Source of the DNA: a virus
Length of the DNA stretch: 24,223 nucleotides
Reading direction: 5' to 3' (one strand)
IMG/VR virus record: IMGVR_UViG_3300033153_007336
Location: 1-24,223 of that record
Shown here: one piece after another, positions 11,973 to 23,079 of the stretch
How the letters are laid out: each line of letters starts with the position of its first letter
How positions within the stretch are numbered: position 1 is the stretch's first letter
Notes under the pieces: model-generated
What the model saw: the letters and a program-made list of their open reading frames with translations, nothing else
Databases searched by the model: none
What the model was told of the DNA's origin: nothing
Translations under genes and position numbers: made by a program

Positions 11973-12485
11973 TTACTTATTTTCTTCTTCAAGTAATCCT
12001 CTCACCTTTGAGATTTCTTCTTCTGTGTGAGCTACGCCACCAGCATTAAGGTCAATGTACCATTGTAAGACCTCAGAACGTGTTTTAAGGTCATTTATAT
12101 GTACAACGAAGTCAGCATCAGTGGATCTCAAATTACCCTCAAAATCCTTGTAAAGCGTTCCAAACGCGGGTATTTCATTATTCATGAATCTCAATACAGC
12201 ATTTAACCGTTGTTTTCCATCGACCAATACAAAATCACCTGTAAAACTTCCCATCCAATTAGGATGATTGAAATACAAATCTTTTCCACTATCCCCACCA
12301 CTTAGTCGAAATTCAACATATCTTATTTGTTGTTCCTCAGTCCAAACATGAGCACGTTGAAAATCAGGATCAAGTTCCAATCCTATTTCATATTGTGATT
12401 CCAACCATTCAGGAATATATTTCCAAGATTGGTTTACCGCGTAGGATGCGGTTCTTGTAAATTTTGGCATATCTTTAAAATGCAT
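11973..12485 (-). CDS. Stand-alone DUF262 (GmrS-type) domain protein (170 aa)
   Basis: Residues 39-44 (DPDFQR, followed by AHVW) and 87-95 (LVDGKQRLN) are the two marks of DUF262, a ParB-like domain found in the GmrSD type IV restriction enzyme and in many phages. Here it stands alone: there is no DUF1524 HNH nuclease half. The usual DGQQR is DGKQR. The C-terminus has the LNAGGVAHTEEEI segment seen in family members. A nucleotide-dependent DNA-related role is inferred, not shown. The start overlaps the upstream stop as TAATG, so it is coupled to the gene at 12485. Confidence 0.75.
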   Translation of the reverse strand: MHFKDMPKFTRTASYAVNQSWKYIPEWLESQYEIGLELDPDFQRAHVWTEEQQIRYVEFRLSGGDSGKDLYFNHPNWMGSFTGDFVLVDGKQRLNAVLRFMNNEIPAFGTLYKDFEGNLRSTDADFVVHINDLKTRSEVLQWYIDLNAGGVAHTEEEISKVRGLLEEENK

Positions 12486-16337: not shown

Positions 16338-16366
16338 ATTATCGGTTATTTTCGATACCGTGTCAA
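16338..16366 (-). promoter_or_regulatory. Early sigma70 promoter cassette
   Basis: On the minus strand TTGACA (16366-16361), 17 bases, then GATAAT (16343-16338). The spacer holds GGT...ACC, an imperfect dyad reaching the -10 box. The stop of the metalloprotease gene is the TGA in TTGACA. The leader from the -10 box onwards (GATAATAGAACCTGATTTGA) is identical to that of the cassette at 10993. Confidence 0.8.
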
Positions 16367-16851
16367 GCACTTTGCAACCATTTCATCTCTAAAACATCAC
16401 AAAATTTACCTGATAATTTTAATTGATTATCAAACGCTTCGACTTCCCAAGGCTGTTCACGATATGGGATTTTGAAACCTTCCCCAATATCCTTACCTTC
16501 CCAACGTACATGTAATTTACCATCAGACTTCCATACACGTCTTTGGAAACGATTTGTAGCAATCTGTTGTACGTGAATCATCTCATGTGCAAGAACTTGT
16601 AACTGAGTCGCTAAATGAGCATCACGATCAATATTAATATTAAATACTTTTTGAGCGATACTACCGTTAGACATCATTTCAACATGACCTCTAGTAGTCT
16701 TCTTAGCACGTCCTGAGACTCGCATAGCGACTCGAATAGTTAAGGTATTAGTCATACGAGTGGACATTAATTCCTTTGCGAAGAAGCGTACAGCGTCCTC
16801 AATGGTAGAATGTTGCTTACTTCCACCTTTCTGTAAAATCTTAACTTTCAT
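16363..16851 (-). CDS. SprT-like zinc metalloprotease-fold protein (162 aa)
   Basis: Residues 89-93 are HEMIH, a full HExxH zinc site, followed by VQQ. PWEVEAFD near residues 134-141 offers the Glu that usually serves as third ligand in SprT-like and related minigluzincins. The region before the motif is basic. The active-site residues are all present, so it should be able to bind zinc. The substrate is unknown; candidates are host DNA-repair or defence proteins. It is an early gene with its own promoter (16875-16903), opposite the late gp26-like gene. Confidence 0.7.
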   Translation of the reverse strand: MKVKILQKGGSKQHSTIEDAVRFFAKELMSTRMTNTLTIRVAMRVSGRAKKTTRGHVEMMSNGSIAQKVFNINIDRDAHLATQLQVLAHEMIHVQQIATNRFQRRVWKSDGKLHVRWEGKDIGEGFKIPYREQPWEVEAFDNQLKLSGKFCDVLEMKWLQSA

Positions 16852-16982: not shown

Positions 16983-17681
16983 ATGGCTCTACCAAAGATA
17001 AACGCTCCAACATATTCACTAACACTACCATCAAGTAAACAGAAAATCAAGTACCGTCCATTCCTTGTTAAAGAAGAAAAACTTCTATTAATGGCAATGG
17101 AGTCAAAAGAAGATGATGAAATGAAAGAGGCGGTAGAACAGATTATTCGTAATTGTTCTTTCGATAAATTAGATCCTCTAACAATGGCATTGGTGGATAT
17201 AGAATATATGTTTCTATATTTAAGAATTAAATCTAAAGGTGAGACCGCAGAATATTCTTTCAAGTGTGATGCGTGTGAAGTTGTAAATGATAAGGAAGCA
17301 AATTTAACTAAAGTAAAAGTTATTAATAAAGATCAAAGTAATGTTATTAAGTTAACATCTGATATCGGAATTCAAATGAAAGCTCCCTCATATGAACTTG
17401 CAGGTGTTATATCTAATGATATGAAAGCGGAATCTATATTCAAAGTGGTAGTACAATCTATTGAATCTATCTACGAAGGTGAAGAAGTTTTCCAAGCAAA
17501 AGATCAATCCGATGAAGAATTAATGGATTTTATAGAATCTTTAAGTGATGCACAATTTAAAGAAATAAAAAATTATTTCGAAAACGTTCCATCATTAGAA
17601 CTTGATATAGATTTTACATGTACAGCTTGTAAAAAAGAAAATACATTAACACTAAAAGGTATAAAAGATTTTTTAGCATAA
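16983..17681 (+). CDS. gp26-like baseplate hub / tail assembly protein (232 aa)
   Basis: The start MALPKINAPTYSLTLPS, then KIKYRPFLVKEEKLLLMAMES, is the hallmark of the T4 gp26 hub family (Pfam T4_baseplate). Two CxxC pairs (FKCDACE near residue 97 and FTCTACKKE near residue 217) form a likely zinc ribbon across the protein. In T4, gp26 is needed for hub assembly. The frame ends KDFLA-stop, and the codons GAT TTT TTA form the slippery heptamer T TTT TTA. The neighbouring tape-measure-like gene supports a chaperone role like lambda gpG; this is inference. It is driven by the late promoter at 16935. Confidence 0.85.
   Translation: MALPKINAPTYSLTLPSSKQKIKYRPFLVKEEKLLLMAMESKEDDEMKEAVEQIIRNCSFDKLDPLTMALVDIEYMFLYLRIKSKGETAEYSFKCDACEVVNDKEANLTKVKVINKDQSNVIKLTSDIGIQMKAPSYELAGVISNDMKAESIFKVVVQSIESIYEGEEVFQAKDQSDEELMDFIESLSDAQFKEIKNYFENVPSLELDIDFTCTACKKENTLTLKGIKDFLA
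17669..17675 (+). promoter_or_regulatory. Candidate -1 programmed frameshift site (T TTT TTA)
   Basis: The heptamer T TTT TTA sits in the phase needed for a -1 slip (X XXY YYZ) in the gp26-like frame, and six bases before its stop. An SD-like AAAAGG (17654-17659) lies nine bases upstream, as in dnaX. Downstream, TAAGCTT (17679-17685) can pair with AAGCTTA further on, giving a seven-pair stem that starts three bases after the heptamer. All three parts of a typical bacterial frameshift signal are therefore present. It is not experimentally shown. Confidence 0.65.
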
Positions 17682-17857
17682 GCTTCCGAGACGAGACTAT
17701 TGTTGGATTTTATAAGCTTAATTTCCAAATAATTTCGGGAGATTATGGAATAACATTAACAGAGCTTGAAGAAATGATTCCTTTCGAAAGAGAGGCTTTT
17801 ACACACATGATCATAAATAAAATACAAGAAGATACTAATAGGAATAGTAATGGCTGA
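17675..17857 (+). CDS. C-terminal extension reached by -1 frameshift from the gp26-like gene (60 aa)
   Basis: After slipping at TTTTTTA, translation continues for 60 codons and stops at TGA 17855-17857, giving a fusion of 231 + 60 = 291 residues. The extension (FYKLNFQIISGDYGITLTEL and EEMIPFEREAFTHMI) is well-formed, helical and acidic, and looks like the T part of G/GT chaperones. The frame has no usable start codon at its head; the first ATG is at residue 34, without a ribosome site. The stop lies inside the tape-measure-like gene start (ATGGCTGA), suggesting coupling. Confidence 0.6.
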   Translation, partial: SISFRDETIVGFYKLNFQIISGDYGITLTELEEMIPFEREAFTHMIINKIQEDTNRNSNG

Positions 17858-19385
17858 CACCGAAGAAGTTAAATCAATACGTAAATTAACAGAGAAGATT
17901 AAAGAAGCTAGTGAGAATACTATTGGCTCTACTAGAAAATTAGCTGATGGTGTTAATGATGCTTTTCGCGCTACATTTGCTGATTCTCCATTATTGAGTT
18001 CTATTGTTGATGTCGGTGAGTCAATGGGTAGAGATGTTCTAGGTTTATTTAAAGGTGAAGAAAAAGAACCTTTAACAGAAGCGGAAACTGAAGCGGCTGA
18101 GCAGAGAAGAGAACAAAAAGATGAGTTGAAAGAAGTTACTAGATCATTAGAAGATGCTAAGAATGATGATTTACAAATGGGTGAGTTAATTCGTACTGAT
18201 AATGAGCAGATCATTGATAACCTTCAAGATATAAAAGATGTTTGGGATGCTGGAAATAATGCTGAAGAAGAACGAGAAGCTATCCGTTTAGCAGAAGAAC
18301 GTTTACGTTTAGAAGAAAGACGTAATGAATTATTAGAAGCATTGGCTGAACAGAGAGATAAAGAAGATGATGAAAATTTAGGATTTTTTGCTAAGTTAAA
18401 AGAAAATTTAACGTTAACCTTTTTAGGTTTATTTACATTTTTAAAATCACCTATTAAGAACTTATTAAAATTCTTTAAACCACTATTAGGAGTATTTGGT
18501 AAACTTGTAAGAGTACTCGGCCCTATTGGTGTTCTAATAGGAGCTGTGATTGGAGCGTTTACTGGCTTTAATAAAGCAACTGAAATATTTGGTGAGAACG
18601 CAACAATCTTTGAAAAGATAGCTTCGTCTATTGGTGGTATAATTTCTGGACTAACATTTGGTCTAATTGATATAGAACCATTGGCTAAAGGTATACATTC
18701 AACATTAAAATTTATATACGATACAATCCAACCGTTTGTTATTACAATGGGTGAATTTTTAGGTGGTGTGTGGGATGTATTATCATCAAGTTTCTCATTA
18801 CTCACTGCACTATTTACTGGTACACCATCTGAGATTGACGCAGCATGGGATACATTCATCGGATCATTTACAGGTTTAGGTGATAAGTTTACAGCTATGG
18901 CAATCGAGTTAAGTAAAACTTTATGGACATTTATTTCTCAGATACCTCAAATGATTTTAGAACAAATAGGTAAGTTAGGTGGTGTATTAGGTAAAAGTTT
19001 AGCAAATCTATTTGCTGACGAAACTGAGGGAAGTAAACTTTACAATAGATTAGAAGATGAAGGTGGACTAGACGATAAATTTATTGGTAGTGATACAATG
19101 TCTAAAGAAGATATTGCTAAACTATCTGCAGCAGAAAATGCTACCCTACAAAAATTCTTATTGGAGAATGATAAAGCTGATAAGAACAGTAAAATAATTA
19201 TTGACCTACAGAACCAGTTAGAAAAATCTAAGGAAGAAAAATTATCACGTTCTGGAGAAGGAAATATTACTTCTGTGGTTGATGCTTCTAATACTAATAA
19301 TACAACTAATATTAGTTATATTAAACCATCAGCTAGAAATCCTGATAATTCATTGAAGACTTCTGTACTTCAAGCATCCTCATAA
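17850..19385 (+). CDS. Tape-measure-like baseplate hub protein (gp29-like, 511 aa)
   Basis: Residues 1-175 are a charged helical region (long Glu/Lys/Arg stretch around 140-175). Residues 180-330 are mostly hydrophobic with several membrane-like helices (LTLTFLGLFTFL, LGPIGVLIGAVIGAF, IASSIGGIISGLTFG). The C-terminal third is polar, ending in an Asn/Thr-rich tail. This is the layout of tail tape-measure proteins; in T4 that is gp29, a hub subunit of about 590 residues. Its position right after the gp26 frameshift unit supports this. It is followed by a strong terminator. Its exact identity with gp29 is inferred from layout, not from sequence. Confidence 0.65.
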   Translation: MADTEEVKSIRKLTEKIKEASENTIGSTRKLADGVNDAFRATFADSPLLSSIVDVGESMGRDVLGLFKGEEKEPLTEAETEAAEQRREQKDELKEVTRSLEDAKNDDLQMGELIRTDNEQIIDNLQDIKDVWDAGNNAEEEREAIRLAEERLRLEERRNELLEALAEQRDKEDDENLGFFAKLKENLTLTFLGLFTFLKSPIKNLLKFFKPLLGVFGKLVRVLGPIGVLIGAVIGAFTGFNKATEIFGENATIFEKIASSIGGIISGLTFGLIDIEPLAKGIHSTLKFIYDTIQPFVITMGEFLGGVWDVLSSSFSLLTALFTGTPSEIDAAWDTFIGSFTGLGDKFTAMAIELSKTLWTFISQIPQMILEQIGKLGGVLGKSLANLFADETEGSKLYNRLEDEGGLDDKFIGSDTMSKEDIAKLSAAENATLQKFLLENDKADKNSKIIIDLQNQLEKSKEEKLSRSGEGNITSVVDASNTNNTTNISYIKPSARNPDNSLKTSVLQASS

Positions 19386-22277: not shown

Positions 22278-22583
22278 TTAATAATTTCCTATTCTACCCA
22301 TATTGAGTCCGGCGGCCGGCAGCCTTAATTCTTTTTCTTTATCCAAAGCTTCTTTTAATTTTTTCGCTATCTCAGGATGCATGATCATACTATTCTCAAA
22401 CATAATAACTTCTGTACTTGGTATTTTAGGTATTGTAATGTTATGTGTTTTAAAAGGTTTCCAAGGCCAAGATAATAAACGTTCTTTCCATGTTCGTTTA
22501 ACTTTTATTGGTTCACCATTTACGGTCATACTAAGGTTTTCAACAACTCTATATCCATTGCATGTGAAGGGTATATTATTCAC
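22278..22583 (-). CDS. Conserved phage protein with WPWKPF motif (101 aa)
   Basis: The middle has TWKERLLSWPWKPFKTHNIT, a motif I recall from conserved small phage proteins of unknown role, followed by P-S-T-E-V and an MHPEIAKKL segment. The C-terminus (LRLPAAGLNMGRIGNY) is encoded partly by an unusual G/C block (22309-22324) in AT-rich DNA. It overlaps the CoaD-like gene by eight bases. Confidence 0.7.
   Translation of the reverse strand: MNNIPFTCNGYRVVENLSMTVNGEPIKVKRTWKERLLSWPWKPFKTHNITIPKIPSTEVIMFENSMIMHPEIAKKLKEALDKEKELRLPAAGLNMGRIGNY
22309..22324 (-). other. G/C-only block in AT-rich DNA
   Basis: Fifteen of these sixteen bases are G or C, with GGCCGCCGG-type palindromes on both strands. 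Nothing else in the window is comparable. It encodes the Leu-Pro-Ala-Ala-Gly stretch of the WPWKPF protein. It may be a constrained protein segment or a foreign insert. Confidence 0.5.
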
Positions 22584-23079
22584 TATTCCACCAATCTGTA
22601 CTTAAAAAGCTATCCATTAATTCATATGTCATTACGTCAGGCATCAAAGGACTTATTATAGTGTAACCAGCTTCCGCTTTAATAAGATTTCTAATAAGAC
22701 TAGAACTTATGTGTTGAGTTTCAGGACTAGAATTAATATATATAGTGTTAACATCAAATGATTTAGTAAATACTTCTACAGATTTCTCATATTCATAATC
22801 TATTGAATTGCGTAGTCCACGAACAACTATTAATGGATAATCGAATTTATCAAATAGTTTATTTAACATACCTTTATGAGATATCACATCAATATATTCA
22901 GGTAAAGATTCTCTTACTAATGACATTCTTTGGTCGAGTGATAATAGATTTGTCTTATCTAAGTTATCCATAACAACAACAGTTAAATTCTCACCAGTGA
23001 ATAGTTCTTCGGCTTTGTATATGATATCCATATGACCTTTAGTAATAGGGTCAAAACTTCCTGTTATTAAAGCTTTCAT
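22576..23079 (-). CDS. coaD: CoaD-type phosphopantetheine adenylyltransferase
   Basis: Residues 7-16 (GSFDPITKGH) hold the nucleotidyltransferase HxGH-like motif, here KGHMDII. Residues 87-90 (RGLR) and the following DYEYEKSV match the pantetheine-binding part of bacterial CoaD. Residues 124-130 (ISSSLIR) are the second nucleotide motif. CoaD converts 4'-phosphopantetheine and ATP to dephospho-CoA. At 167 residues it has the family's full length (E. coli CoaD 159). Substrate use in this phage protein is inferred. It overlaps the HD-domain gene upstream by four bases (ATGA) if both are read as coupled. Confidence 0.85.
   Translation of the reverse strand: MKALITGSFDPITKGHMDIIYKAEELFTGENLTVVVMDNLDKTNLLSLDQRMSLVRESLPEYIDVISHKGMLNKLFDKFDYPLIVVRGLRNSIDYEYEKSVEVFTKSFDVNTIYINSSPETQHISSSLIRNLIKAEAGYTIISPLMPDVMTYELMDSFLSTDWWNSE

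Follow-up and report, generated by a model that had tools for sequence, protein, structure and literature searches.

A 24,223-nucleotide window, comprising positions 1 to 24,223 of the IMG/VR virus record IMGVR_UViG_3300033153_007336, represents an undescribed T4-like phage and carries a T4-like gene set that includes genes for a tail tube protein, a gp26-family hub protein, a gp32-like single-strand binding protein, a helicase loader, and a DNA end protector. Very probably, the gp26-family gene (16983-17681, + strand) is subject to a programmed -1 frameshift of the type that generates gpG and gpGT in phage lambda and gives rise to short and long tail assembly chaperones.

The gp26-family gene encodes 232 residues matching PF12322 (E = 3.8e-58) and phrog_150 (E = 2.5e-61), and its 3' end reads GAT TTT TTA GCA TAA, with the single codon GCA separating the in-phase slippery heptamer T TTT TTA (17669-17675, + strand) from the stop codon TAA (17679-17681). 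Past the slip, the -1 frame (17675-17857, + strand) contains 60 open codons and terminates at a TGA codon (17855-17857); joined to the first 231 codons of gp26, it translates into a fusion of 291 residues. The chance of a 60-codon open frame at this place is about 0.006, judged from dinucleotide shuffles of the stretch, and the first ATG, GTG, or TTG codon in the -1 frame occurs only at +95 from the gp26 stop. The extension matches phrog_634, "baseplate hub assembly catalyst" (gp51; E = 8.2e-12), and is thus the known gp51 family domain rather than an anonymous tail. Between the window and a close relative (L002), the nonsynonymous divergence (dN) of the -1 frame is 0.069 and the synonymous divergence (dS) is 0.470, a dN/dS ratio of approximately 0.15; the -1 frame is under purifying selection.

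Directly 3' of the gp26-family gene and its -1 frame is a gene of 511 residues (17850-19385, + strand), considered tape-measure-like from gene order and from weak similarity to several PHROGs annotated as tail length tape measure (best E = 2.7e-5). Starting with the ATG at 17850, it shares its first 8 nucleotides with the end of the -1 frame, an overlap also seen in 99 of the 229 -1 loci surveyed below. Ribosomes that slipped would terminate at the tape-measure-like start (17850-17857), and it is possible that synthesis of the long form and the tape measure is coupled in this way.

Conservation of the slip site among relatives

The survey drew on IMG/VR scans using gp26 queries and on annotated phage records, to which profiles of gp26 and the -1 domain were applied, and the frame of the gp51 domain was scored in 250 gp26-type open reading frames; the loci are related to one another, so the counts and probabilities given here do not represent independent trials. 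The domain was located in the -1 frame in 229 cases and in the +1 frame in one, and another 13 are continuous T4-type genes. No domain was seen in the remaining seven: four (L049, L053, L115, and L160) are on loci that stop shortly past the match, and the others are short paralogs or a distant member. All but one of the 229 -1 loci (228, with 188 distinct junctions) carry an in-phase T TTT TTN heptamer at the junction, and the sole exception, L068, is a T4-type gp51 gene broken by an indel. Since nearly all of the -1 loci share this in-phase heptamer, the arrangement is neither chance nor a sequencing error.

The last base of the heptamer is C in 171 loci, T in 46, A in 10, and G in 1. The gp26 stop codon is kept in each of the 228 loci, 0 to 8 codons past the heptamer. 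In the bodies of the gp26 genes, an in-phase NNT TTT TTN occurs at only 60 of 42,940 codons, and NNT TTT is kept at the junction in 24 of 24 representatives sharing less than 70% identity, for which codon usage alone gives a probability of about 1e-12. Carriers of the slip site include P-SSM2, S-PM2, KVP40, phiM12, Rhizobium phage N34, Stenotrophomonas phage Marzo, Aeromonas phage AS-zj, Pelagibacter phage Mosig, and Methylophilales phage Melnitz, and the -1 arrangement is shared by the close relatives L002 and L003, which are 89% identical to the window. At the level of sequence, the comparative evidence for the slip site is decisive. The preliminary description of this DNA had pointed to the in-phase heptamer just before the gp26-like stop and to a 60-codon -1 frame, devoid of a usable start, that ends within the start of the tape-measure-like gene; both are present in the DNA. 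The check it named, whether heptamer and open frame recur in the gp26 genes of relatives, came out in its favor, and this recurrence supports its proposal that the gp26-like gene encodes a G/GT-style tail chaperone.

Two of the surveyed genomes contain gp51-like domains that have not been annotated. In Aeromonas phage Aeh1 (L248, NC_005260) the domain lies after position 1986 in the -1 frame past T TTT TTC, and in Vibrio phage vB_VmeM-32 (L249) it lies after position 1968 in the -1 frame past T TTT TTT.

Full-length matches to PF12322 are found for both T4 gp26 (E = 8.8e-64) and T4 gp51 (E = 3.9e-52), and only gp51 carries the extension (phrog_634, E = 1.2e-23); T4 therefore has a separate gene for each form, gp26 for the short one and its paralog gp51 for the long one. 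These genes are on opposite strands, and annotation indicates the same two-gene arrangement in Aeromonas phage 31 and Acinetobacter phage Konradin. KVP40, Aeh1, and AS-zj, which like T4 belong to the Straboviridae, have a single gene with a slip site. The earlier suggestion that hub assembly in T4-type phages follows the G/GT scheme thus applies to the products but not to the way in which T4 makes them. A review of the T4 tail published in 2010 (PMC3004832) counts both gp26 and gp51 among the hub assembly chaperones and reports that gp51 is required yet absent from the particle.

The direction of the shift may also vary. In L020/L246 and L247, the junction reads AAC TTT TTT CGA and the gp51 domain follows in the +1 (or -2) frame (L020:3673-3688 and L247:2173-2188). 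These are related but independent contigs whose gp26 sequences are 68% identical, and because the two agree, the arrangement is unlikely to be an error. The odds seem evenly balanced that the shift switched direction within the gp26/gp51 family, to +1 (or -2) here versus -1 in the 228 relatives. No report of such a switch was found in the available literature, which is incomplete and was not searched specifically for one, and the frame arrangement of these loci is possibly new. If the switch is real, the family, in which T4-type phages have also lost the slip site through gene duplication, would be a natural record of recoding that shifts direction or is supplanted while both products are kept.

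Proposed mechanism and alternative explanations

In the proposed mechanism, the gp26-family gene would encode a short tail assembly chaperone (TAC-N, similar to lambda gpG). A minority of ribosomes would move back one base on T TTT TTA (17669-17675) and read past the stop codon, adding the 60-residue gp51 domain to produce a 291-residue long chaperone (TAC-NC, similar to gpGT). The short form would be in the majority and would coat the tape measure protein encoded directly downstream, whereas the less abundant long form would use its gp51 domain to recruit components of the tail tube or hub; both forms would be absent from the finished virion. In the lambda scheme (PMC5009743), it is the short form that binds the tape measure, and tail subunits are recruited through the extension. 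The slip site, the open frame, their conservation, the selection on the -1 frame, the homology to T4 gp26 and gp51, and the gene order are all established here; the occurrence of slippage, its rate, and the binding partners of the two products are inferred.

RNA signals that could promote slippage are enriched across the family. The 70 nucleotides past the slip site have a mean folding z score of -1.83, compared with -0.23 in control stretches of gp26, and SD-like (Shine-Dalgarno-like) pairing upstream of the site is stronger than the synonymous expectation (-7.2 versus -5.1 kcal/mol, n = 149). In the window, the downstream fold has a z score of about -2.1. The stem TAAGCTT/AAGCTTA (17679-17685/17714-17720), named in the preliminary description, is broken in L002 and L003 and was dropped. 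A stronger alternative stem, CTTCCGAGA/TTTCGGGAG, competes with it; the 5' arm (CUUCCGAGA, 17683-17691, + strand) begins 7 nucleotides past the heptamer and pairs with the 3' arm (UUUCGGGAG, 17733-17741, + strand). In L002 and L003, this stem shows a double change from C-G to A-U and a change from G-U to G-C, making it a moderately supported candidate for the downstream stem. The SD-like AAAAGG (17654-17659, + strand), also named previously, does lie nine bases 5' of the heptamer; its pairing does not exceed the synonymous expectation, and this weak candidate was rejected as a stimulator.

An AlphaFold2 model of the gp26-family protein (predicted local distance difference test score of 86.7) had its best structural matches, over residues 1 to 94, to 2OB9 and 3FGX, with a Z score of 7.5 for each and 3.3 for the next match. 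These structures, HK97 gp13 and Rbstp2171, are described as tail assembly chaperones (PMC9603447). The model lends support to a putative tail assembly chaperone fold for the N-terminal domain of gp26. Foldseek alone returned no match to the gp26 model with an E value up to 0.001, and sequence searches against solved structures gave only chance-level matches.

Several results weigh against programmed frameshifting or a chaperone role. The SD-like pairing in the window (-3.9 kcal/mol) shows no excess over its synonymous expectation of -4.5 kcal/mol, and the support for the window stem amounts to one compensated pair between two genotypes. The cyanophage hairpin showed little covariation in a set of 32 sequences, which are too conserved to decide the matter. 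The Z score of 7.5 falls in the range that the tool calls "possibly common", and a model of a T4-type gp51 retrieved no chaperone structures, though this says nothing against the family. Finally, a start codon is present in the -1 frame near the junction in 173 of the 228 relatives; there, some gp51 domain could additionally arise in free form by re-initiation.

An alternative account of the whole arrangement is re-initiation, or translational coupling, downstream of the gp26 stop, in which case the gp51 domain would be a separate small protein and the T run would be incidental. Current annotations list a separate gp51 gene in P-SSM2, S-PM2, P-HM2, and KVP40, and an in-frame ATG occurs close to the junction in 149 of the 228 loci. 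However, 55 of the 228, including the window, offer no ATG, GTG, or TTG anywhere between the upstream stop and a point 15 codons past the slip site, and conservation of the heptamer in its phase goes beyond what codon usage would maintain; re-initiation explains neither observation. In T4 gp51, moreover, both parts form one covalent chain. We consider this alternative very unlikely. T runs can also support transcriptional slippage, and RNA polymerase slipping on this run would produce a mixed mRNA from which a fused protein could be translated. Maintenance of the X XXY YYZ phase argues against this, as does the sequence of the run itself, which is six T's followed by C in 171 of the 228 loci. 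The enrichment of RNA structure past the run and of SD-like pairing before it is what ribosomal slippage would be expected to show; transcriptional slippage fits these signals less well and is highly improbable. Although T runs are error-prone and one added T would join the two frames, a missing T from sequencing or assembly, or a fresh frameshift mutation splitting one continuous gene, is scarcely credible and an error is excluded because the same -1 arrangement, with its stop retained, recurs across many samples (228 loci) as well as in finished isolate genomes, and the close relatives L002 and L003 agree with the window.

Other genes in the window

No Rfam family or tRNA was found in the window. 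A minus-strand gene (22576-23079), which appears to be cargo, encodes a protein resembling cytidylyltransferases (PF01467, E = 3.7e-13) that may be a phosphopantetheine or nucleotide adenylyltransferase. A small protein encoded at 16363-16851 (- strand) contains a HEMIH motif of the HExxH type, has weak metallopeptidase matches, and is assigned to unknown function by PHROGs. At 11973-12485 (- strand), a short protein matches the N-terminal domain of the GmrSD restriction endonuclease (PF03235, E = 1e-9); Pfam recognizes nothing else in this open reading frame.

Comparison with known systems

Frameshift chaperones of the gp26 family have largely been described already, according to papers that cite Vladimirov, Gautam and Davidson 2022 (Virology 566:9-15). 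The PRFect paper (PMC10274946), citing that work, states that some T4-like tail assembly chaperones consist of a short and a long gene, and the paper on phage Adele (PMC12846349), citing it as well, mentions poly-T slip sites in the TAC-N genes of T4-like phages. The two parts of the gene described here fall into the same families (PF12322, phrog_150, and phrog_634) as the T4 chaperones gp26 and gp51, which likewise occur as short and long forms; T4 uses two genes for the two forms, whereas this phage uses one gene with a -1 slip site. The analysis adds an undescribed T4-like phage to the scheme of short and long tail chaperones and, in a large sample, identifies the slip site, not a separate start, as the conserved feature.

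Sullivan 2010 (PMC3037559) counted the gp51 genes of cyanophages and vibriophages, which lack the first ~200 residues, as shortened separate genes and counted gp51 as missing in Aeh1. These truncated gp51 sequences are the -1 domain seen here, and the -1 frame of Aeh1 holds a gp51 domain, which explains why gp51 appeared truncated in the former and missing in the latter. This suggests that many genome records split or omit the gp26/gp51 gene.

Unlike lambda, which slips on a different heptamer, the phage of this window is T4-like and its extension is a gp51 domain. Lambda gpG and gpGT constitute short and long forms, as proposed here (PMC5009743). The chaperone of the Vandenendeviridae and Andersonviridae (PMC12846349) has, as in this phage, a conserved -1 poly-T slip followed by an extended open -1 frame that precedes the tape measure gene, but these are other phage families and their motif is given as GTTTTT rather than T TTT TTN.
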